From Herpomyces periplanetae (taxonomy: Eukaryota; Ascomycota; Laboulbeniomycetes; Herpomycetales; Herpomycetaceae): DNA of 64,000 nucleotides. Made by a program: the position numbers and the translations under genes. The DNA lies in the NCBI GenBank assembly GCA_009733715.1, contig WMKJ01000049.1, forward strand, positions 32,554 to 96,553, given 5' to 3'. Of this stretch, positions 26,252-40,897 are shown one piece after another (positions within the stretch are counted from its first letter, which is position 1; every line of letters begins with the position of its first letter). The notes under the pieces are model-generated. The model ran no database searches and was not told where the DNA came from. It worked only from the letters and a program-made list of their open reading frames with translations.

Positions 26252-27898
26252 TTAATTAACATCACAAAAAAACCGAAAGACGACTGGAACAACGCTCGGC
26301 GGCAGACTTCCGTACTCCGTAATAACCATCGTGATGTATTCGGCTGGTGTAACATCGTACATTATGTTTAAAACTTGTAAATTAGACGTTTCAGTCCAAG
26401 CTTGTACTAAATGATCCGCTGTAGTTGTGGCTGTATCCGTGTGAACTCGTGTAACTCCCAATATTTCTGCCTCTGGAGCTATTTCATTCATCACGATCGA
26501 GTCAAGTACAACTCGATCCGTGAATTTCAAACTTTCGCAGCACACTATCACCGGTATGTGTCGAACTTTGGCGTGCATTGCAATTATGGCAGTTCCAACT
26601 CTCGAATAAAGGCATCCATTTCCCATCATCGCATGTGCTCCTAAGAAAACTTTTGTGGCCCGCGCAACAGCGTGACATGCTCCGCTTACAAGTGTATAGG
26701 AAACTCGAATTCCATGTCGTGCAAGCTCTGATGCCAAATGACTACCCTCAAATAATGGTTTGCTATCCACTACAATTACTTCAAATTTAACACCTGCATG
26801 CCATGCTTCCAAAAAAGTCTTCAAGATAATACTTGATTTAGCAAATGTAACTATCACATCATCTTGTCGAATTTTTCCTGCGCCGGTTTGACTGATCACC
26901 GTATCTGCATATACAATCCTTTCATAGATGAATGTATCGATTGCATCAATAAGTGCAGCTTTCGCATCCATTTCCGGTGTTGATGGGTCAATTTTAATGA
27001 TCAGATCTTTCAAATATCGTATCGCATTACCCATGGATATGCTAAGTGGTCGACATGATTTTAAAAAGTCAATTTGCGGTGAAAGGTGATGCGATGTTAA
27101 GTGTCTTGCTAAAGATGTTCCCTCCGGTGTCGTATACGAGAGCAAAACGTTCTTAAACGCTAATAGCATAGCCAGGCACCTAGCATTACTTCCACAAATC
27201 TCGTAACAGCTCATCTTTAGTCCTAGCGTTAAAACGCTTGGATGAACTTCTTTAAATTTATTTCCAATCGAAGATCTTCGCGACTGACCGTACAAATGTC
27301 CAAACAACGCTACATTTTTATCCGTATCACCTCGTGATGTACGCGGTGTAGAGGTATCCAATAATGGTGACGACGGAGGTAATGAAGGCGGTAAAGTTAA
27401 CCGTGATGAATTTTTAAATGTAATAGTATGATCCGATCCCAAAGTATTCAGCATAGTAGTGCTTGTTGAACCACTAACGGATCCCGTAGATGTATTCTGA
27501 CCTGAACTGTGAGAAAGAGTGTGGGATAATGAAATACCGGATAAATTTGTCGCATTTACTGTGCGTACACCAGAGTCCATGCGCAATCCTTGACAATTCC
27601 CCGTACCTGTACGTACGTTTGTTTCAGTAGTTTTTCGTTGCATCCTACGAGATGCTTTTTCCAGTTTTGCAAGCTTTTTCAACTCAGCATTGCTGAGTTT
27701 ACTTCGTTCTCCATTTCCCGTTCCCACTTCCATTTGCATTCCAGCTGTACACCCGGTCATAGATCCCGTTGTAGATGTACACGCTGAAAATGACCCTGAT
27801 GAACTTAGCAGTTCCGGGTCAACAAACGGATTAACCAGAGAATACTCCGACGCGTCCAACTTGCTATTCCCCGATTCCGTTCCATAAGACTTTTCCAT
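26252..27898 (-). CDS. GCD2: Translation initiation factor eIF2B subunit delta (GCD2)
   Basis: Regulatory subunit of the eIF2B guanine-nucleotide exchange factor, which senses eIF2-alpha phosphorylation in general amino-acid control. Intronless, 548 aa. The N-terminal 180 residues are Ser/Thr/Gly-rich with a basic KLAKLEKASRRMQRK helix, as in other delta subunits. The C-terminal Rossmann-like IF-2B domain begins with ALFGHLYGQ and VHPSVLTLGLKM. It contains SMGNAIRYLKDLI, TFAKSSIILKTFLEA, VIVVDSKPLFEG, GIRVSYTLVSGA, a FLGAHAMMGNGCLYSRVGTA segment and PVIVCCESLKF. It ends with YDVTPAEYITMVITEYG. Length is close to yeast Gcd2 (about 650) and human EIF2B4 (about 520). Confidence 0.92.
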   Translation of the reverse strand: MEKSYGTESGNSKLDASEYSLVNPFVDPELLSSSGSFSACTSTTGSMTGCTAGMQMEVGTGNGERSKLSNAELKKLAKLEKASRRMQRKTTETNVRTGTGNCQGLRMDSGVRTVNATNLSGISLSHTLSHSSGQNTSTGSVSGSTSTTMLNTLGSDHTITFKNSSRLTLPPSLPPSSPLLDTSTPRTSRGDTDKNVALFGHLYGQSRRSSIGNKFKEVHPSVLTLGLKMSCYEICGSNARCLAMLLAFKNVLLSYTTPEGTSLARHLTSHHLSPQIDFLKSCRPLSISMGNAIRYLKDLIIKIDPSTPEMDAKAALIDAIDTFIYERIVYADTVISQTGAGKIRQDDVIVTFAKSSIILKTFLEAWHAGVKFEVIVVDSKPLFEGSHLASELARHGIRVSYTLVSGACHAVARATKVFLGAHAMMGNGCLYSRVGTAIIAMHAKVRHIPVIVCCESLKFTDRVVLDSIVMNEIAPEAEILGVTRVHTDTATTTADHLVQAWTETSNLQVLNIMYDVTPAEYITMVITEYGSLPPSVVPVVFRFFCDVN

Positions 27899-29477
27899 AT
27901 TGAAGATTAAATGTCACAATTAACCTTGATCTCTATTTCATTAAAACCTTAATAATCTAATTTGCCAAAAAAATTCCAAATAAAATTCTTACCCTCTCCA
28001 GGATACTTGAACAGTTGAACGCTCCGAACTTAACCGAAATAGCATTCAAATAATCTATCAAAATTTAACCGACCCAAGCCTAACAATACTCTTGTGCATG
28101 ATTTCCCGCTAACCCGTAAAATTGACCCTGCAAAACCCCCGTCAAATCTATACTCAAAATATTCTTTCCACCGATATCGTACTAAATGCTCCATGCTAAT
28201 TTTTTGGAAAATTTCATCGCGAACACCTAAATCCCCAAATTTTCTCCATTCAGTGAACCACGTGACTGGCATATGCTCAGTCTGCTGAGATAAGCATTCT
28301 GGTCCATGGATCACGTGGTTTGCAGCGTGGTGATGGCTTCAGTGCGAATTACCGTTTTGGGTAATAAACTGACTTGAATGTATGTTCAGAATTAAAATAA
28401 AGGTAAGTAATGTGTGTAATGGTAATTTATGATTAATTGCAAAATTTTGGGGTGAATAATTTTACGAATTAAAATTGTATTATAATTGAGTTTAGCTTTA
28501 TGTTTAAAATTGAGGTATGTGTTGATTATTTTCTGTTTCATTTCAATGCATATCCCATCCCACGCTTTTGACTACTACGAAGGATCCAATATTTTATATT
28601 ACTTCAAAATCCTAATGGTGAATTACTTATACGCTTGATTTAAATTTCAATTCTCATGCTAAATTTCATGTTGCTTGTATCCAATTTGTATACTGTCCCA
28701 AACCGAAAAATTTATATTTTGTAATCAACATATTACACCTGTAATAGATGTTATGGTTGTACTTTTGCAAATTCGCTCTACAGCATAAACATATTTTAAC
28801 CAATATTAATATGTAAATTCATTCGACTCGATAATGGAGAATATCAATTCTTATAATTTCCCAGCATTTATAGACAATGATTTTGTACAAAATTATAGCA
28901 ATCAAACCACTGACTATTTCATCCTAGTTCCTATAATACATCTCATTCAACGTACTGATAGACAGGTTTGATACCCATTTGCTCTTTTTGATTCCAGAAA
29001 ATATAGCCCCACAATTTAAAGATTTCAATAAAAGCTTTCTTTGTAGATCAAGATTCGTGTTAGTGTAAAATCACTATCATAGAGTTAGTAGTTCAATTAT
29101 GCAATTACGGCTTTATTCAAAAACATTTTTAGACTTATGTCTAAACTTGTCCAAACATAACCGTATAAATAACTGAACTTGTAACATACTATATATTATA
29201 ATCCAGTATGCCATTGAAAGCTAGCTACCACCATTTGTTTTGTTCATCGGAGTCGGCAAAGCTAACCTGTAGTGTACAATTTCTTTTGGCTTCTTTGATT
29301 TAACCTGCAACACACTTAATATGTAACTCGGCTCTAATCAATATTTCATTTCTAAAGGTTACCTGCAAGATTCATAAGATTGACCGATTTTTCATGTATT
29401 GATATACTTTCGTTCGTTTGCGTATAAAGGTTTAAACCGTCCCATTGTATTCACGTAATTTTTCACTTGGAACCACG
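27899..29477. other. AT-rich intergenic region with two E-boxes
   Basis: No supported gene in about 1.6 kb. CACGTG at 28259-28264 and 28312-28317 lie about 360-420 bases upstream of GCD2. A 94-aa ORF at 28030-28314 (minus) shows no family match or signal. From 28370 to 29470 the sequence is strongly AT-rich and without pattern, up to the 3' end of the secreted repeat protein. Confidence 0.45.
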
Positions 29478-31559
29478 TTAAATTGCCCTCTTCGCTTTAT
29501 TTTTAGGGCTATAAGATTCTGCAATTTCCTTAATCCTGGAATGCTCTCGTTCATTTCTACTTAGAGTTAAGATTGACCGATCGTTTTCACCAACATTCCG
29601 CTTACGCCCACGTAAAGTTTCCCTCTTCGCTTTTTTTAAGGGTCTATAAGATTCGGCGATTTTCTTAATTCTGGCATGCTCTCGTTCATTTATCCAGGAA
29701 TCTGTTTGTGATGGTTGATCCTGCGAATTTGATCCCTGTTCAGATCCATGCGACGTTTTCATCTCTGCTGGTTTATGAGGCCTGTAAGATTCCGCAATTT
29801 CCTTAATCCTAGCATGTACTCGTTCACTTTGACCTGGGGTAGAATCCGGTCCATCATGCTCGGTTACATTCCGTTTTGATCCGCGTAAAGCTTCCCTCTT
29901 CACCTTACTTGAAGGTCCATAAGATTCTGCAATTTCCTTAATCCTGGTATGCTCTCGTTCACTTGCCATAGCATCCACTGATGATGGTTGACCCCGCCGA
30001 TTTGATCCTTGTTCAGATCCATGCAATGTGTTCACCCTTGCTGGTTCATAAGACTCTGCAATATACTTAACCTTGGCATGCTCCCGTTCTCTTTCACCAG
30101 CTGACAATGTTCCACGTTCAGATGTATTTGATACGTATCCATTGCTACCCTTTAATCTACTATTATGCCTTTGTAACTCTTCCCGAACAGGTATCTCAGG
30201 CTGCTTCTTTTCCTTTTCATTTTCCGGTTGACTCCATCGATTAAATTTAATTTGTTTATCAGTGTCTTCAGACATATGAGGTTTGTAAGATTCTGCTAAT
30301 TCTTTGATTTTAGCGTGTTCCCTCTCTTCCTCGGCTATTGTTGAAGTTGAATCTCCACCTCTATGTTTCTCTTCCCCAAACGTGCTACCTATGCTCGTCG
30401 GTGACTTGCCATTTAAACTTTGTTCGCCCTGATTAGACTTATTTGGCGCCCATCCCTTAAGCTCTGATGATGCAGGCGATATTGTAGACTCCCAAAACAG
30501 TTCAGGGCGATCAGACAAATGGGTCCGGTAGGAATTTGATATATTCTTAATCCTAGCATGTTCTTGTTCTCTTTCCTGTGTCGCTACATCAAACTTATCA
30601 TTCTCTACCTCGTCACTAACTTCAGCTCCTCCATTCTGAACTTTGGGTGCATTCTTTTGATTGAGAGGGTTTGTCATAACATCTGCCATACTTGGTTTAT
30701 CCTCTTCAGATTTCTGTATATCTTTCCATTGTTTGCCATAGTTCACATCGGAAGTATTCAAGGTTTCATCTTCGTCGGATAAAGTCTCGTCATGAGATGA
30801 TGATATACGATGAGACTCTTTACTTTTAGTATTGGATTTGTCATTCGGTTCCGTTGGCGTTGACGGATCCATATCCAAAGTAAGAATTTTTGATGGATCA
30901 GTTTGAATTATAGGTCCAGATGAGTTCTTAGGATATTGTTGTTTTAAATCATCAAAATTTGACTCATTTATTCCACAGTCCCCGCCTAAATGTTTAATCC
31001 AGATATCAATGGAAAGACATTCATCATTTAAACTCATTTGAAGATGAGGAGAGTCTGGCATACTATAAACTCGGTAGCTCAGCAATTCCACATCCGTTTG
31101 GTTATTATTCGTATACTCCCCCAAGAGTCGAGAATCGATCTGTGTAGGGCACAATGCAAACGAATGTGGTTTAGAATTAATAACTGGGAGAACCGTGGCT
31201 GTAGTGTTTGAGCGCCGTAGTAACTGAAATACGTCACGAGTAGAGTTGCGAAGAGAATTTGGGTTGGAGGACAATGCAAGTTGAAAGTCAGAGTTAAAGT
31301 AAACAACTTCATCACTATTATCGACTCTAAGCTGTCCTAAATTCCTTTCAGGTTGTGTACAAAGGTAATTTAGTGCTAATTTTCTCTTGCAATCTGCAAA
31401 GTAATGTAAAAAGTTTTTAGGGTACTTCACCATAAGTGCACTAATCATGTTATGGTCGGTGCAGACGGCCCGTGGTGCGACGTATTCAATTCTCATGTCA
31501 TATCCAAGTACTTCGATAGAACGAAGAATAAATAGAAATAAAATGGTAAAGGTAATCAT
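29478..31559 (-). CDS. Secreted repeat protein of unknown function (six-Cys N-terminus plus seven EREHARIKEIAESY-type repeats)
   Basis: I do not recognise the family. The first ATG in the open frame (31559) begins MITFTILFLFILRSIEVLG, a good signal peptide of about 19-20 residues, giving a 693-aa precursor. Codons upstream of this ATG stay open but contain no other ATG. Residues 21-215 hold six cysteines (33, 57, 67, 137, 181, 195) and several N-glycosylation sequons (NST, NTT, NQT, NES, NSS). A charged Ser/Asp-rich linker follows. Residues about 330-683 carry seven imperfect copies of E-R-E-H-A-(R/K)-I-K-x-I-A-E-S-Y-x-P. They are separated by spacers of two alternating kinds: one with HGSEQGSN, the other with KRE-LRG-KRN. 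Lys-Arg dipeptides suit a Kex2-type protease. There are no introns and no transmembrane segment after the signal. A secreted, possibly processed effector or wall protein is an inference only. Confidence 0.75.
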   Translation of the reverse strand: MITFTILFLFILRSIEVLGYDMRIEYVAPRAVCTDHNMISALMVKYPKNFLHYFADCKRKLALNYLCTQPERNLGQLRVDNSDEVVYFNSDFQLALSSNPNSLRNSTRDVFQLLRRSNTTATVLPVINSKPHSFALCPTQIDSRLLGEYTNNNQTDVELLSYRVYSMPDSPHLQMSLNDECLSIDIWIKHLGGDCGINESNFDDLKQQYPKNSSGPIIQTDPSKILTLDMDPSTPTEPNDKSNTKSKESHRISSSHDETLSDEDETLNTSDVNYGKQWKDIQKSEEDKPSMADVMTNPLNQKNAPKVQNGGAEVSDEVENDKFDVATQEREQEHARIKNISNSYRTHLSDRPELFWESTISPASSELKGWAPNKSNQGEQSLNGKSPTSIGSTFGEEKHRGGDSTSTIAEEEREHAKIKELAESYKPHMSEDTDKQIKFNRWSQPENEKEKKQPEIPVREELQRHNSRLKGSNGYVSNTSERGTLSAGEREREHAKVKYIAESYEPARVNTLHGSEQGSNRRGQPSSVDAMASEREHTRIKEIAESYGPSSKVKREALRGSKRNVTEHDGPDSTPGQSERVHARIKEIAESYRPHKPAEMKTSHGSEQGSNSQDQPSQTDSWINEREHARIKKIAESYRPLKKAKRETLRGRKRNVGENDRSILTLSRNEREHSRIKEIAESYSPKNKAKRAI
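29505..30575 (-). repeat. Seven-copy coding repeat (EREHARIKEIAESY units)
   Basis: The core units on the plus strand lie near 29511-29556, 29641-29690, 29780-29829, 29914-29972, 30041-30101, 30281-30332 and 30523-30572. The five copies at the C-terminal end are regularly spaced (about 130 bases) and most alike. The two N-terminal copies are further apart and degenerate. Spacers of copies 3 and 5 resemble each other, as do those of 4 and 6, which points to duplication of a two-unit block. Confidence 0.85.
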
Positions 31560-32071: not shown

Positions 32072-35000
32072 TCAAGAATATGCCGCCCAGCCTGCAAATA
32101 GCACTGATAAGTTTCGTGGATCTGTTGCTTGTTGAATAAGCTCGTTGACAGTAGCTTTAATGCTTAATTTATCTTTATTGAGTTTTTTTTTAACAGTGTT
32201 AAGTGCAAGAATAAAATGAGTTTGGGACTGTGTAGGGTTCAGATCATTTGCAAGTGGGGTGAGAGAATTTATGATAGGTGAGCAATCCTCATGATCCTCG
32301 TCATCTTTAATATTTTGAATTCGTTTGGCACGAAGACTCGTAATACTCCAGTCATAGAAGGGGTCGAATTTAAGAACGTTGAGCAATGTCAATATACACT
32401 CCCTATGTTCGTTCATAGCACCCAGTGTAAATTGACAACACCGTCGAAATACCCCTTCATACCCCGTGCATCCCATGGCATCGATAATATCACGAGTCAA
32501 TCGAAATGGAACGTTCTCCGGGATTGGTAAAATTTTACCTGATTCGAAGCATACTTCAAAGTCTACATGAACCAGTTCACCACTAGTTTCATCAATCAAA
32601 ATGTTTTGAAGATGCCTGTCACCGATTCCAAGAATGTATCCTGTGATCGAGTTCGTCGCTACACTACGTGTGTAAGCTGTCCTCTTAGAAAACCATTCAT
32701 CGGCTGATAAGTAACGTTCGAAAAAGAATTGGTGCAACACAGGCGAATATTGCGAGCAAACTAGTTTAAATGTAGATAGGCGAGTCTTACTATCTCTTTT
32801 CATTACCGAAAATATTTTTTTACGGCATTCTTTTGTAGGTAAATCTGACGGATGATACGCATGATGAGCATAAGACAAGTACTCTGCCAATGAAAGGGTA
32901 TTATCTATAAATTGGATGATAGATGCATTAAATTTAAGTGGTAGTACTTTGTAAGTTCGTATGCGTAATGCCCTGAACCTAGCTTGAAACTGGACGTGGA
33001 GAATCCTGTTAATTTGATTCAAAACTTGCTGCATTACAACATCTCGTTTGCAGCTCGTTGCGTCTAACGCCGAAGTAGTTGATGAGCCATCTTTAACTAT
33101 ACACTTATAGCTTTGTCCATTATCCGCAATTTCTACTATAATTTTAGGCATACTAAGCCCTTCTGCCACGATAAAATCTTCCTTAAATCCCGTTACCTTG
33201 GGAAGTATACCCGGACTAAAATAATCTCCGTCATTGCGTACCCTAACATTTAAAGTAGGCGGGGGAAGATTTAATCTAGGAATTGTATTCAATAATTTGC
33301 GTGTTTCTCGGTATAATTCCATTTTATGGCTTTCCTCCCGTTTAACTCGCATCCGCGCCACATCATAATATAATGAACTACTTAAATATATATCTCGCCA
33401 AACCTGACTGATTCTTGTACGCCGAGCATTAAATTCCCCAGATATTTCCCTTGCAACTAAAGCCCTTTTCTCCACCATGGTTGCACGTGACGAATGTACT
33501 GGCGAATGAAACGTTGAGCTCAACAAAATTGTGGGTCCACGAGTTACCCCTGCATTGGTCGAAGAAAAAGTGGATACTGGTGTACCTGCATTTCCTTCTT
33601 CTATGGCGGTGTATATGGACGGCATTCCGTGGTATGGATGATCGAAACATATTCGGAGAATCAAAGCCTTAATTAAACTTAGGAAACATTCCGGGGTCCG
33701 TTTATTTTCAGTTTGACAGTTATTAGACGTAACCTTAATTTGTTTATCCGCTTCATTGTTAGATTGCTCTCCAAGCCTACTCATTAATTGTTCCATTAAC
33801 CAAACAAATTTTCCACTTCCAACCTTTTCAATTCGTGATTTAACTACACAGTTGGCCTTTTCATTTTTTCGGTGTTCAAACCACAGTCCTAAAAATCCCA
33901 CAGAACTAATGTCATCAAAATCATCACTACTTTCCATGGAGCGTAGGTAATTTTCCAATCCTTTTAGGACAAATTTATCCCAAGTTTTCCTAAGTCGACC
34001 TATTTCCTCTTCTCCAATCTCTCTCCACTTTTTCATGTCATGAACCCTCTTTTCAAAGCGTTTTCGTTTTCCTTCATCTTCTTTACTTCGATACTCTTTG
34101 ATTACTTTCTCATAGGCATCCATTTCTTGTTTGCCCAATGCCATTCCACGTTCCTTGCGTAAAATTCTCTCTTCGTAACCCCCTTGTCTTACTTGTCGAT
34201 CGCAGAACTTTGCATATTCAGAGTACCCTCGTGCCATTGCATTTGCCGTTTGATGCGTTTCCCCTCCCGTATCTAATTTATCGTAATATTCCTTCATAAT
34301 ATCCTCAACTCGTTCAACCTTTGCTTCCTCTACTTCGTACGCTAATCGACATGCCAATTGTTGAAAATCTTCCCTTTTCACCCTGTCATCTTCTTTCAAT
34401 CGTTCCCACACTTTTTTCAATATTTTAATTGAACTATCCCGCTCTCCTTGCTCCCACAGCATTCGTGCGGTTTCTATTTCAATGTCTTCTCGCAAAATTT
34501 GAACTCCTGTCCACTGCTTGCTCAGTTCACGCATATACATAACCATACTCACACTATCACCCATCAAACCGTACTCTCTAGCTGCCCGGGCCCATCTAAT
34601 CAAGCCTTTCATTTCAATTTTTTGCGTAACTTCATTCCACCCTACCCTTTCACTGATCCTTCGAAACATGCCCCGTCTACAAAGTACAACCCTACGCACT
34701 TCGTTCCATCTCATTTCACCAAATTTTTCATCGTGTTTTTCAATATCCTTCCATATCTTTTCCAGTTCCCCTATATCATTCACTCGTCTTAATCGGTCTT
34801 GTTCCCAGAGACATCCTAATTGACATTGCATAGAATTCATTTTAACCCATTCTTCACTTAATCGAACCATTTCTTCAACAGTTTCAATTACGCTTTGCTT
34901 GGTGTTTTCATCATTCATCCATATTTTCGGTCCAGTTCCACGCCCATCTCCCCCGAAACCAACACCACGACGTTCTTCAACATCAAGTCTCCATTGCTCT

Positions 35001-38000
35001 AGTTTGCTCGCTACATTATCTCCTTGAATTCCACTCTTTCTACCTCCTTCATTCATCACAAGTCCGTAGTAACCCAAATTCAAATCGTCAAACGATTCTA
35101 TAGTTCCACGTAAATCTTCTTCACACAATTCCACACCTAACTGGATGCGAGAGTCAATTGTTGCACCGCGAATCAACAGACTCTTTCCCCCGTCTTTTTC
35201 GTAATCTAATCGCCTAAGTATCCCATCAAAACTGGAGCCCTCTTCGACTCCATAGAAAGAATCCGGCTCATCAAGACCTCCATAAATTCTAAGTAATAGC
35301 TCGCCCATCTCCCCAGCCCATTCAACTTTGGCGTTAAATCTCTCTCGGCCACCACATTCACTCCAACTAATTTCTGCTAACATTAGTGCTGTGCTGAACA
35401 TTCCACATTGAAGGGCTGCGCGTGAAGCCTCTAAAAAATCCACTTTAAACCAAAAGTTCCGCTCCGCACTACCCGCTTTACTGTTTTTTCCCCCTCGACC
35501 TCGTCCTCTCAAGTAAAGTATAACGCTTAGCAAAGCTTTTCTTATTGCTTTAACCCCTTCGCTTGTATCATTGAAAAATTCCTTGCACAAAGTCCCCATT
35601 TTGGCCTTCCCAATCGCATTTTCCCTAACCTCCTCTGCTAATGTCATGTGTACGATCGGATTTAAAAGTAATTCACCCAGTCCGTCAATCTGTTCAATGG
35701 CACCTTTTAACTCCCACACCATTCCATTTCGTGCTCCAATTGAACAGAGCCAAATGCATAGAGACTTTGCCCAGTCCTCTACTCGCTCATCGCAGTCCTT
35801 TAATTCGAATGTCGCCGATCTCTTCCTATCTTCAGCGCTACTATCAACATTTAATCTTAAGCCTATAATTACTTTGTCATCAACACAAGCTTCAGCTATC
35901 CACTTATCTTCTTTTCCTTTCTGCCCAAGACAAAATATTCTTCGAAGTGTGTCCTCGACTATGCTAACCGTGCGAGAGCTTTCACTGTATAAGCTATCGC
36001 ATAATGTTTTAATAATAAGTCCACCAGACGAAATCCCCTTCCAATCTTCTTGTTCATGCTTCCATTGGATTCCAAATACAGAGCAACGAATTCCCCTAAA
36101 GAACGCCTCCCCCAATACTCGTCCACTCCAAAACACGTACTGTTTGCTGGCATTGCCCTTTTTCAAAGTTTTCCATACTTGATATCCATATCTTACTGCA
36201 TCCACCTCTAGAACTCTCTCGCATTCGGAGTCAAATGTTTGAATAGCCGTCGAAATAATATAGTCACGCCAACGCTCAGATATTACCTTATCATGAGACA
36301 CTTCTTCTTTGAACATTTCTACGAGCACTTTCCATTCTGTACAATCATTGGTTTGGTCAAGCAATTTAAAAAACCTATCTGCTCCCCTTATAGTCCTTAA
36401 AAATTGATGTACCCACTGGCAAAACTCGTTAATATTCTCATACCCAGGACCATTATCTTTTATGAACTTATTTAACCATAAGTATACCGACACACAGTAT
36501 CCAATTAATGTTTCATCGGTCTTCTCCCCCTTGATATCAGAGCTTCGGGCGATCAAATGTTTGGCAATTTTAATAGCTTCTAGGCTACAAACCGAGTCCG
36601 TTAGATACTTTCTCACCATTCGCAACGTCATTTCAAGAGCATAGCCCTTTAAGGCAATATCCTTAGCGAAACTGATCGCTATGCCAACTTGGGCTAGCTT
36701 TAATCGCTCAAAGTATCCACCTGTACCCCCATCGTCGCTCGCCATAATAAATCTAACCAAGTAAATGTATAACCCTTCTGTCCAAACTCCATCCCAATCA
36801 ATATTTGAAAGTTTGCATAAATTTTCCACAGCTAGCATTAGTTCATCTCCTATCAGTCGAGGCTGACCAACATATCCTATTTTCCAACTAGGTTGTGTCA
36901 TTTTTATCATTTCGTCACCTTTCAACAGGCTTAATGCATCAAAATTAATTTGATAACTTTCTGTTCTTTGCATTAAATAGCCCAAAACCTTGGCAAACTT
37001 CACACGTGGAATCCGTTTAATTTTAGCCCGTACTAAGAATTCTTTTATACTCTTATCTAACTGTTCAGCATTCCAAATAATCATGTAGGCAATTGTTCGT
37101 TCAAACGCTTCTTTTAACAGCATATCAAGCTTCCTACCCAAAAGCTTATTAACATTTTCAAGTTCTTCGTACTGGGCTCGCATGGCAAGCTGCGCTATAA
37201 CTTCCTCCATACTCGCCATTACCATTTCCTCGATGGTAGTAAAACCGAAACATGCGTATGGCAAGCTTTCAATTTGTCTATTATTTTCAATCCATCCAAA
37301 TAAAATTTGTCGTGAGAATACAGTAAAAATTTCCCTACCATTGGTCAAACCGATTCTTTTACCAATGTTGCAGAGGCTAAGCTTTCCATGATCCAACGAC
37401 TGTTGAATAGTCCCTGCTATATTCACAATATCGTAGACACAACGACCCACAAGTTTAGGCTCTATACCGATACGACTGACGATCAATTGACGCATGAAAA
37501 TTACCTCAACCCATTCTGTATGATGGGGTAAATATCGAAAAATTTCTTCAAACACACGTTCTTGTTGCTCTGAAGAAAAGCAGTTGAAGAATTCGTGTAT
37601 GTTAAGTGAAACATGATGCATTACTGAGACTTCGCTGTTCTCCATTAATTTTATGTACGCTCGGCCTGCCCAACCGAGGCCTTCTTGCGTTTGTTCATCC
37701 TCATTTTGTTCCTTAGTGACTTGGATGAGTAAATCAATCACGCAAATTCTCAAATAGGACGAAAAAACGCCCTTGGTGCTGGCATTGTTAACTAGCCATT
37801 CATAGATGTCTCGACCTTTAGCCCATACACCACCACCATGCCTCCAAAACTTAACAAATCCGCTTACTAGCCGGATAACCAACTTGAGAGGTATTTCACT
37901 GCGTTCGTGCTTGTAATTTTGAAGCAAATTACGTCCGACAAACTCGAGAATCATTTCCCCTTCGTGAATTCCAATATCTAGAGAACTTGAAACTAGTGAA

Positions 38001-40897
38001 CTTAAGAACCCTTCACATGCACAAAAGTCTGCAACTGAGTAGTTTGTAATATGTTTGATGAAATTATGAGGAACTTGATTGTTTGCAGTTCCAGGTGTCA
38101 TAGCTTCAAATGCATGCGATACTAGATGTGCCAATGATGCCACGTATAGGCGAACTGACCTCACATCCCCCCGCTGTTCCCAATCTGTGCACCATTGATG
38201 AAATGATGACAACCGTGTACTTCCTAGCGTATCATTGTCTTCGAAATCAGAATCATACTCAGCTTCCGTGGGAATCTCCCCATCGTCGTCCCGGTCTCCG
38301 TATACTACTTTAACACGAGCATCTAGGCTACGCGAGATATAAAGCAGTAAGGGAAATAAGCCCACGCGTTCGAAAGCATCAGGGTCCAAGTTTTGGAATT
38401 CTGACATAGCAGGTGTGCATTCACACACTGCCATAAGCACAGAATCCACATTGTCCGCTATATAAGAGCTTTTGAGGATTCCTTTTGATATGTATTTGAG
38501 TAGCTCATTGGTTCCCTTTTTCAGAGTTTCAACTAGACATTTAAGTGTGTCGTCACTCTGGTACGACAAGCAACTATTTAATATACATTGCATTGTTGCA
38601 CCACGCATCATCACGACCTTAGATGAAGACGCCCAATCGTGCCCCTTGAAACTTTGGCAGGAAGTTTCCGTCTCAAGTACTAAATATTCGAATAGCCGTT
38701 TTTCCATATCTTCAGAGGAACTGAATTCCCTAAGCAAATTTTGACAGCCTGTCTCGTTAGTAGCACCAATAGCAACTTTTCGAGTCAATCGAGGAACATC
38801 TTCATCAGGGAGCAGTAGCAGGTATTTCAATTGACGGGCCTCCTCGCAGCTTCGAGACCATACACGACCTATTCTGTCCAAAATGACTAATGGTGCAAAT
38901 CTAAATCGTACCAAAGGGCGTCGAAGACAGATTCGAGCCAAGTTCGCGACATCAAGGGCAGAAAAGTTGGCACTGATTGCCATATATCCCCCTCGCTCCA
39001 CTTTCCAATGACATTTCCATTTATTCATTAGCCAATTTAATATTCGCTCGGACAGAGATTGCCACGAAAAGCTACTGAGGGATATGGTAAATTGGAGAAA
39101 GTTTTCCCATAAGGATAAAATGGAATCCGAGAGTGAAGTTGGACAAGTCATATCAAATGAAACCAGTAGTTCATCCAAAAATGTGCGAATTACGGAGCAA
39201 GGCACTAGTTCCAATCCGAGAAGAACGTTCATTAAATGTCCCGCAGCTCGACCACACGATGCAGTAGGTAATAGTCGGGTTGCTGCGACCCATATATCAG
39301 CGTATTTTGAACGCATAGATGGAGCGGCACTAGTTACCTGAAAGGCACAACTAGATATTGAGAAAGTAAGCCAGTAGGGTAAAGACAGAACAAATAAAAC
39401 TTACTTTGCCAGTGTGATAAGAGACCAATTTGACACGAGTAGGTTCTCATCAGGTATTAATGGTGTTAGCTTCGAGAGCAATTTTTCTAGGCACTCTTCA
39501 GTTAGAGTTAACTGAGGAATCATTATGGCAAGGATTTGCAAGCTGGTTATCCGCTCATCGATGGAAGTAGACAACCCGGCAGAGTCCATAAGATCATCGA
39601 ATTTTAAACATTTTCGCTGACGCTTTATGGGCAAAATGCTATCCCTTAGTCCAGAAGAGCCGTCAGATTTTTGAAGAGTATGTTTATCTAAAATAAAATA
39701 GTAGTAACCTAGGACAAATGGTATACACCAAAAGATGCTGCTTGGCTCTGGGTATAATGGGTTCATAGCAACAGATAGAAATGAGATATGTCCATAATCA
39801 CGAAGGGATTGTCCGGGAAAAAAGAAAATGAGACGATTGAGGGATATTAAGTCTTTTGGTTGCCGTTTAGTATACTCGGTGAATAAGATAAGGAGAAGAG
39901 ACTCGAGTACTTCAAGGTCTAAGCGATCCACATAAGCTAAATGAGTTAAGTGCCAGCGGCAGATGATCAAACTTGTGAGGATTTGTTCTTTTAAAAGCAT
40001 GTCTTTAACAGCCCATAAATTATGAAAGAGAGGAAGAAGGTTGAGTATACAAGATTGTGTAATTTGACAATGTTCGGGTGTGGTTCGAGCAAGTACGAGA
40101 TTCAGGCAAGTTAGCACGTCAGCCTGAGTACGTTTGGCAGATATTAGCAATTCAAATAACACAGTAATGAGTTGCTCCGCCAATTCAAGAACGGGGGCAT
40201 TTGAAGCTAGTAAAAGATATTTTAAGCATTGAACGAGTTCCATGCATATTGGAGAAAGTTCGGAGGTTAGCACTTTACGGGCACGAGAGTCGTTTTCGAT
40301 TTCTTTTGATTCTTGTGACGGATTGGAAGATCTGAGTTTGCTCGTAATGAAGCCATCTTCGTAAATTACCATAGAACCTGAAGCACCAGATAAGACGCGG
40401 CAGCAGTTAATGCAAAATTGTGTAAGAGACAACCAATAATGGCGCAAATGTTCAGTGTGAGGTTGAAAAGCAAGAATGACCTTAAGACATTTGAGATAGT
40501 CGAGAGCGATTGGTTTGCAAATTTTAAGAGTTTCCACGTAAACATAAGTTTGAATATGTTCTAAGATTAACTTGACGATTTTAGCATCAAAGAATTGTAC
40601 GCCGGATTCGATAACTTCACGTAAAGTTGTAGCAATTGAACTTAAACGAGCTGACACAGAGGATAAAGAGCTTCGTGCATGTGATTTTTCAAGCAGAGCA
40701 CGATCAGAAGCCGCAGCACGAAATAAGGTCTCGAAGATAATTCGCCATTCTTTACGTTCGATAGACTGTACTTTAGGCGTGTTGCGAATAGAAGCGAACA
40801 CATGGCGAAGATCAGCTACGCCCTCCTTCTGACATTTTATGGTAGACGAGCGAATTCGATCTAACACATCAAGCAAACAAATTTTTCCGTCACTCAT
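32072..40897 (-). CDS. TEL1: TEL1/ATM phosphatidylinositol-3-kinase-related protein kinase
   Basis: DNA double-strand-break and telomere checkpoint kinase of the ATM class; nuclear. Two exons, 40897-39405 and 39350-32072, give 2923 aa (yeast Tel1 2787). The intron acceptor TATCTAG was chosen because the nearer CAG breaks the frame; the joint reads ITLANCAFQ. The N-terminal two thirds are HEAT-like helices, followed by the FAT region and the kinase. The activation and catalytic blocks near residues 2710-2790 are ERYLSADEWFSKRTAYTRSV, SITGYILGIGDRHLQNILID and LPIPENVPFRLTRDIIDAMG. The FATC end is LSVLFAGWAAYS. Oddities: the usual HIDLG/HIDFG reads HVDFEVCFE, and the Lys-loop LRQD motif reads CKRD after an insertion. 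GDRHLQN and the metal-binding Asp are intact. ATR and TOR are less likely because ITGYILGIGDRH, VPFRLTRDI and EGVFRRCC are ATM-type. Confidence 0.92.

Follow-up and report, generated by a model that had tools for sequence, protein, structure and literature searches.

The locus analysed here raises the question of what a repeat-tailed protein of no recognised family does, and whether its own repeats can tell which of its parts selection keeps. The gene lies in the window, the whole stretch of 64,000 nucleotides that was analysed, and is read on the minus strand from an ATG at 31559 to a stop codon ending at 29478, which gives 693 amino acids. The coordinates and the ATG start given by the first-pass annotation are exact, and the strand, left unstated there, is minus.

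The gene and its neighbourhood

29478..31559, minus strand: open frame of 693 amino acids between ATG and stop codon, taken to be one exon on the basis of codon use and the lack of an intron-like stretch

This frame has a codon score of 0.149, the median for 45 ORFs of 300 or more amino acids being 0.134, and its shifted and reversed readings score -0.053, 0.004 and -0.069 (the last being the opposite strand). ORFs of this length from stretches outside the window, which are also among the 45 compared, served to train the codon table, and base rates were taken from a sample covering part of the genome, namely 200 kb in 20 contig-start stretches plus the window, with 61 ORFs. By part of the protein, the scores are 0.095 for the head, 0.224 for the linker and 0.157 for the repeats. 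No intron inside the frame was found by one consensus pattern, and the base at -3 of the ATG is A. Upstream of the ATG, another 60 codons can be read in this frame, none of them ATG; since they score 0.079 and are weakly coding-like, translation may start farther upstream by way of splicing. A chance or non-coding frame was rejected by codon use and by the constraint on the motif described below. The frame is a real gene, coding-like and present as a single copy in its own genome.

The gene is flanked on one side by an eIF2B-type gene (26252-27898) and on the other by a TEL1/ATM-like kinase frame (32072-39316), and the three share the minus strand. The earlier description of the window as otherwise housekeeping was largely right, since among the 26 other ORFs of at least 150 amino acids, 20 were scanned (one from a later start), and 17 of the 20 match a Pfam family. 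The TEL1-like gene is itself divided over two frames, one with the kinase and FATC part (32072-39316) and another with the TAN domain (39401-40897), perhaps with an intron between them. Long uninterrupted frames also occur in the window, such as the TEL1 kinase part with 2414 amino acids and Nup192 with 1728, and the frame at 19174-20190 matches CofD of the 2-phospho-L-lactate transferase family, which is better known from prokaryotes.

Search for relatives and placement of the fungus

Among 5.8 billion proteins, no relative was found either with the whole protein (none at E up to 0.1, 6867 candidates scored) or with the head (none at E up to 1, 305 candidates scored). Pfam, NCBIfam and PDB gave no match over the cut-off, and the motif profile had none in PDB at E up to 1; thus the earlier statement that no family is recognised still stands, the profile match that could have overturned it being absent. 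The sole Pfam line, a 12-residue match at E 0.27, was taken as chance. A paralogue family in its own 13.79 Mb genome was likewise rejected: in a six-frame search, which scores the best candidates only, the whole protein, the head and the repeats match only their own gene at E up to 10. Viral and prokaryotic contigs gave 10 and 41 pattern matches, respectively, none confirmed as a relative, as expected for a fungal gene. When motif strings were sought in literature text, only the short "erehar" occurred among the matches listed, with no title concerning such a protein.

As a control, 7991 candidates were scored for the neighbouring eIF2B gene, and 876 proteins matched at E up to 1e-20; the best, from Rhizodiscina lignyota, has 69 percent identity over 64 percent of the query, and the named ones in the best 120 of the 876 look fungal. 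In a quick tree of this one gene, built from 44 hand-chosen rows among the 120 listed of 876, the fungus falls in a set of five rows with Rhizodiscina, Eremomyces, Tothia and Venturia, four genera of Dothideomycetes (SH-aLRT 95). Its branch is four times the median length, and the placement is rough because of this long branch and an odd letter composition. Hence, the tree roughly suggests a fast-evolving, Dothideomycete-like fungus. Fast evolution could erase the recognisable kin of a secreted protein, so that an orphan need not be newly born. With a genome of 13,790,361 bases in 220 contigs, and about 40 percent G+C in the window, the fungus seems to represent a fast-evolving lineage with a small genome, where such orphans merit cataloguing. 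Searches of the same genome gave one strong match to the STE2 receptor, two exon-sized CFEM matches over the cut-off, ketoacyl synthase over the cut-off at five places, and no match to GH28 or cutinase; nothing therefore points to a degrader of plant tissue, and these results together say little about lifestyle.

Leader, head and linker

31503..31559, minus strand: putative signal peptide, residues 1-19, with the hydrophobic core ITFTILFLFIL and V-L-G before Y20
30915..31502, minus strand: head, residues 20-215, with six Cys and five N-x-S/T sequons and no Pfam, PDB or homologue match
30576..30914, minus strand: acidic, disorder-like linker, residues 216-328, from net charge and charge-hydropathy

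The protein is probably secreted, as suggested by a leader with an 11-residue hydrophobic core, whose N-terminal hydropathy score is the highest of the 61 ORFs and whose residues 1-19 have a mean hydropathy of 1.95, followed by V-L-G before Y20, to which the -3/-1 rule for signal peptide cleavage was applied. The signal peptide proposed earlier is hence retained as a putative one, judged by hydropathy. The remaining parts of the N-terminal description could all be located: Cys at residues 33, 57, 67, 137, 181 and 195, sequons at 105, 118, 153, 198 and 212 within the first 215 residues (five further ones lie beyond residue 215), and an acidic linker with a net charge of -14 over residues 216-333. 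The head falls on the folded side of the charge-hydropathy boundary and the linker and repeats on the disordered side. After the leader there is no further hydrophobic stretch, the 19-residue mean being at most 0.71, which leaves no visible GPI signal or membrane span; the C-terminus reads KNKAKRAI and lacks the hydrophobic GPI signal of GPI-anchored fungal adhesins. A single-sequence structure model of the head alone was unusable (mean pLDDT 31.9).

A second secreted-looking protein, of 263 amino acids, was observed at L013:7666-8457; its N-terminal part contains Cys, its tail is repetitive and rich in Asn, Gly and Met, and it has no Pfam match.

Seven motif copies and their spacers

The tail (residues 329-693) carries the motif EREHxRIKxIAESYxP seven times. 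Its 14 residues, E-R-E-H-x-R/K-I-K-x-I-A-E-S-Y, are followed by x-P in six of the seven copies and have sharp limits, with E at -3 and Y at +10 relative to an invariant H; five columns (E, H, K, S and Y) are invariant. The H residues stand at 334, 415, 494, 537, 582, 628 and 673, at spacings of 81, 79, 43, 45, 46 and 45. All seven copies reported earlier were recovered, each agreeing with 11-12 of the 12 positions of a motif profile; in a six-frame scan of 264 kb (527,916 positions) with this profile, which was built from these same copies, nothing else reaches 8 of 12. Off-diagonal self-similarity of the protein is 58 SD above 20 shuffles and ranks second of the 61 ORFs, behind a CDC48 frame. 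Tandem Repeats Finder reported no array in the region and only a 19-base simple repeat.

The copies, located by the motif profile, and two larger units, located by self-alignment, are as follows:

30528..30569, minus strand: motif copy 1, residues 331-344, EQEHARIKNISNSY
30285..30326, minus strand: motif copy 2, residues 412-425, EREHAKIKELAESY
30048..30089, minus strand: motif copy 3, residues 491-504, EREHAKVKYIAESY, then an A-type spacer (RR at 521-522)
29919..29960, minus strand: motif copy 4, residues 534-547, EREHTRIKEIAESY, then a B-type (KR) spacer
29784..29825, minus strand: motif copy 5, residues 579-592, ERVHARIKEIAESY, then an A-type spacer
29646..29687, minus strand: motif copy 6, residues 625-638, EREHARIKKIAESY, then a B-type (KR) spacer
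29511..29552, minus strand: motif copy 7, residues 670-683, EREHSRIKEIAESY, then a short B-type spacer
29775..30047, minus strand: first of two 91-residue double units (residues 505-595), which align with each other at lag 91 with a score of 277
29502..29774, minus strand: second of these double units (residues 596-686)

Type A spacers read ..LHGSEQGSN.. or ..SHGSEQGSN.., and type B spacers ..KxKRExLRGxKRNV... Their alternation, claimed in the first-pass annotation for the whole array, holds from copy 3 onwards; copies 1 and 2 are more diverged than the later ones, and each is followed by a longer, unique spacer. Because the two types alternate from copy 3, the newest part of the arm looks like a duplicated 91-residue double unit, the two units being identical at 55 of 91 residues and 199 of 273 bases.

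A single-sequence model of residues 20-693 was too poor to use (mean pLDDT 40.9). In it, six of the seven motifs are mostly helix and the better blocks (pLDDT 50-68) lie on or beside motifs, and the same low-confidence model likewise places helices in the head, where pLDDT is near 30, and a further two in spacers and tail. The hydrophobic moment of the motif is 0.28-0.51, not clearly above same-letter shuffles (p 0.10-0.38 per copy). The idea that the repeats form a regular helical solenoid did not hold, because the 14-residue motifs are parted by unequal, charged, disorder-like spacers of 29-67 residues.

Constraint on the motif and history of the array

The orphan's own repeats reveal which part selection keeps, a 14-residue motif that is near-fixed among spacers that drift. 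Between the two double units, the motif has a pN of 0.060 and a pS of 0.396 and the spacers a pN of 0.305 and a pS of 0.425, so that synonymous change is alike in both and amino-acid change in the spacers is five times that in the motif (Fisher p 3.8e-5 for the contrast, on rounded counts). Pooled over all 21 pairs of the seven copies, pS is 0.65 and pN 0.18, and 158 of 277 differences among copies fall on third codon positions (permutation p 5e-5). A similar contrast (pS 0.56, pN 0.16) in one of the five alternative readings, a shifted one on the reverse strand, arises because its third positions are shared with the true frame, and codon use speaks against that reading as a coding frame. With the motif under stronger constraint and the spacers drifting, the motif is the likely working part of the arm, and offers a specific peptide to test for binding.

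The pS and pN between copies also suggest that the copies are old rather than freshly homogenised. A further unit was sought in the 3' flank:

29297..29432, minus strand: probably one more repeat unit, now decayed, in the 3' flank beyond the end of the frame, alignment score 59.5

Aligned with the expected next unit as probe, this stretch scores 59.5, a value reached by none of 1000 dinucleotide shuffles (maximum 54), and the best of 28 flanking control windows scores 45. An earlier, looser alignment, with other gap costs, was weaker, its score being reached by 2 of 500 and 55 of 500 shuffles for two probes. Owing to this decayed unit, the repeat array was probably once longer.

Proposed working

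A short constrained motif among drifting spacers fits the expectation for an array of docking motifs. The reading that we tentatively put forward, with a confidence somewhat short of even, is that of a secreted, probably hyphal-surface or extracellular, multivalent protein, in which a disulphide-bonded head would carry a disordered arm with seven helical docking motifs. We infer the secretion, disulphides, helix, binding and surface location from the sequence. In such a protein, the leader would direct the chain into the secretory pathway, the six-Cys glycosylated head would fold and localise it, and the acidic linker with the disordered, charged arm would display seven helix-prone 14-residue motifs, which may act as repeated docking sites for one partner, with strength gained by number. 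The arm would have grown by duplication, the latest being that of the 91-residue double unit.

Kex2 sites and a possible processed precursor

The main rival to the docking-array reading is that the protein is a Kex2-processed repeat precursor (KEP), whose arm is cut at KR or RR so as to free motif peptides, and the following sites bear on it:

29871..29900, minus strand: part of the B spacer after copy 4, with KR at 554-555 and 562-563, from the sequence
29598..29627, minus strand: part of the B spacer after copy 6, with KR at 645-646 and 653-654, from the sequence
29487..29492, minus strand: last KR site, residues 690-691, from the sequence

These five KR sites lie in the C-terminal 140 residues at matching places in both B spacers, one A spacer has RR, and the first arm KR site reads KR-EA, resembling the XA signature described for STE13 following KEX2 cleavage (PMC6339444). 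A Kex2-like protein is present in the same genome, in an 837-residue frame with Peptidase_S8 and P_proprotein. The head also has dibasic sites (KR at 58, RR at 115), and cutting the whole protein at KR and RR yields nine fragments. Three of the products would be peptides alike in motif and K-x-K-R end, one of 33 residues with one motif, one of 83 with two motifs and one of 37 with one motif; two others would be the similar octapeptides EALRGSKR and ETLRGRKR.

However, the arm KR sites are confined to B-type spacers, one of the two types, and in a hand alignment the KR pairs of the B spacers are matched by EM and EQ in the A spacer that follows copy 5. No KR or RR occurs in the stretch of 406 residues that contains copies 1-3, which only KK at 451-452 divides, and copies 5 and 6 share one KR/RR fragment, so the repeats are not interspaced by KR or RR throughout. 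If KK and RK were also cut, copies 1-2 would part from copy 3, and one cut would fall inside motif 6. The KR pairs kept between the double units are not striking, since the spacers as a whole drift. The KEP criteria, as set out in PMC6339444 and PMC7329392, ask for a signal peptide without a membrane span, which was judged here by hydropathy, at least 4 fragments after KR/RR cutting, at least 3 of them similar, and a repeat of at least 15 percent of the length. By hand count, 3 x 33 of 693 gives 14.3 percent, just below the cut of Le Marquer et al., and a share of 19 percent, which passes it, results if the 406-residue fragment is counted as a fourth. DUF3328/UstYa, a mark of ustiloxin-type RiPPs, had no match in the genome, nor did control genomes give any.

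Thus, the Kex2-processed precursor suggested in the first-pass annotation is borne out weakly: a Kex2-like protease and KR sites are at hand, but a classical precursor is doubtful because KR occurs in one spacer type and the first three motifs lie unseparated, and we consider it unlikely. There is a slight chance of a hybrid, in which the head and the first three motifs would stay on the hyphal surface as a docking arm while Kex2 frees the later one- and two-motif peptides to compete for, or signal via, the same partner; if so, one gene would make a tethered ligand array and its free ligand.

Further alternatives to the proposed docking array

Instead of docking to a partner, the motifs could associate among themselves into short coiled coils and so crosslink the molecules, as in a wall or matrix protein that assembles itself into a network. 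In our reading, the conserved positions I, I, A and Y are compatible with a single amphipathic stripe, and the helices drawn for six motifs in the low-confidence model agree with this. Self-assembly is nevertheless quite unlikely, as the hydrophobic moment of the motif is not significant and a stable coiled coil would normally be longer than 14 residues.

A host-directed effector, in which the basic B spacers (KKAKRETLRGRKRN) act as nuclear-import signals after uptake and the motifs bind a host protein, is very unlikely; in its favour, these spacers hold bipartite-looking basic clusters, which we liken to such signals, and the protein is secreted-looking with no relatives found. Repeat effectors that enter host nuclei have been described (PMC5923269). 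Nevertheless, the basic clusters may equally be protease sites, and the unmatched GH28 and cutinase give this reading no help. Finally, a signal-anchored or secretory-pathway-resident, unsecreted protein is highly improbable by the rules for membrane anchor length and HDEL-like retention signals: the mean hydropathy of the first 19 residues is within membrane-anchor reach, but the core spans only 11 residues, followed by R and E and a plausible cleavage site, and the C-terminus is not HDEL-like.

Comparison with known systems

The gene belongs to a familiar general kind, that of repetitive fungal surface or secreted proteins; internal repeats were reported for 15 effectors of Ustilago maydis and 23 surface-associated proteins of Mycosphaerella graminicola (PMC5923269). 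The AGLs of Glomeromycotina are like it in being secreted, with tandem repeats and disorder, and are reported as unique to one lineage, but their repeats are Pro- and/or Gly-rich (PMC8786786), whereas those described here are charged and helix-prone. Repeat effectors of plant-associated organisms, as described in PMC4617103, resemble the proposed arm in having repeats that are often extended or disordered and that bind partners. KEPs including Rep1 are also secreted-looking, with repeats, KR sites and a Kex2-like protein in the genome (PMC6339444, PMC7329392), and 2560 of 7878 are listed as stand-alone ones without homologs (PMC7329392). The present protein differs from them by KR in one of two arm spacer types, by three of seven motifs unseparated by KR or RR, and by its head, which contains Cys and spans about 200 residues.

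The nearest described architecture is that of Rsp3 from Ustilago maydis, a fungus of another phylum, and the likeness is one of build, with no kinship claimed. As in Rsp3, which is described as having a signal peptide, a Cys-rich region and degenerate C-terminal repeats making up about half of the protein, with no GPI anchor predicted and without being predicted as a Kex2-processed repeat precursor in that account (PMC5923269), the 693-residue protein combines a leader judged by hydropathy, a Cys-bearing region and a repetitive C-terminal half with no GPI signal, the agreement being one of architecture only. Rsp3 differs in its Gln/Pro-rich region, nine Cys and several repeat types, in place of one charged motif present seven times, and it is shown to vary in length between strains (PMC5923269). 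Rsp3 decorates the hypha and binds secreted host proteins (PMC5923269).
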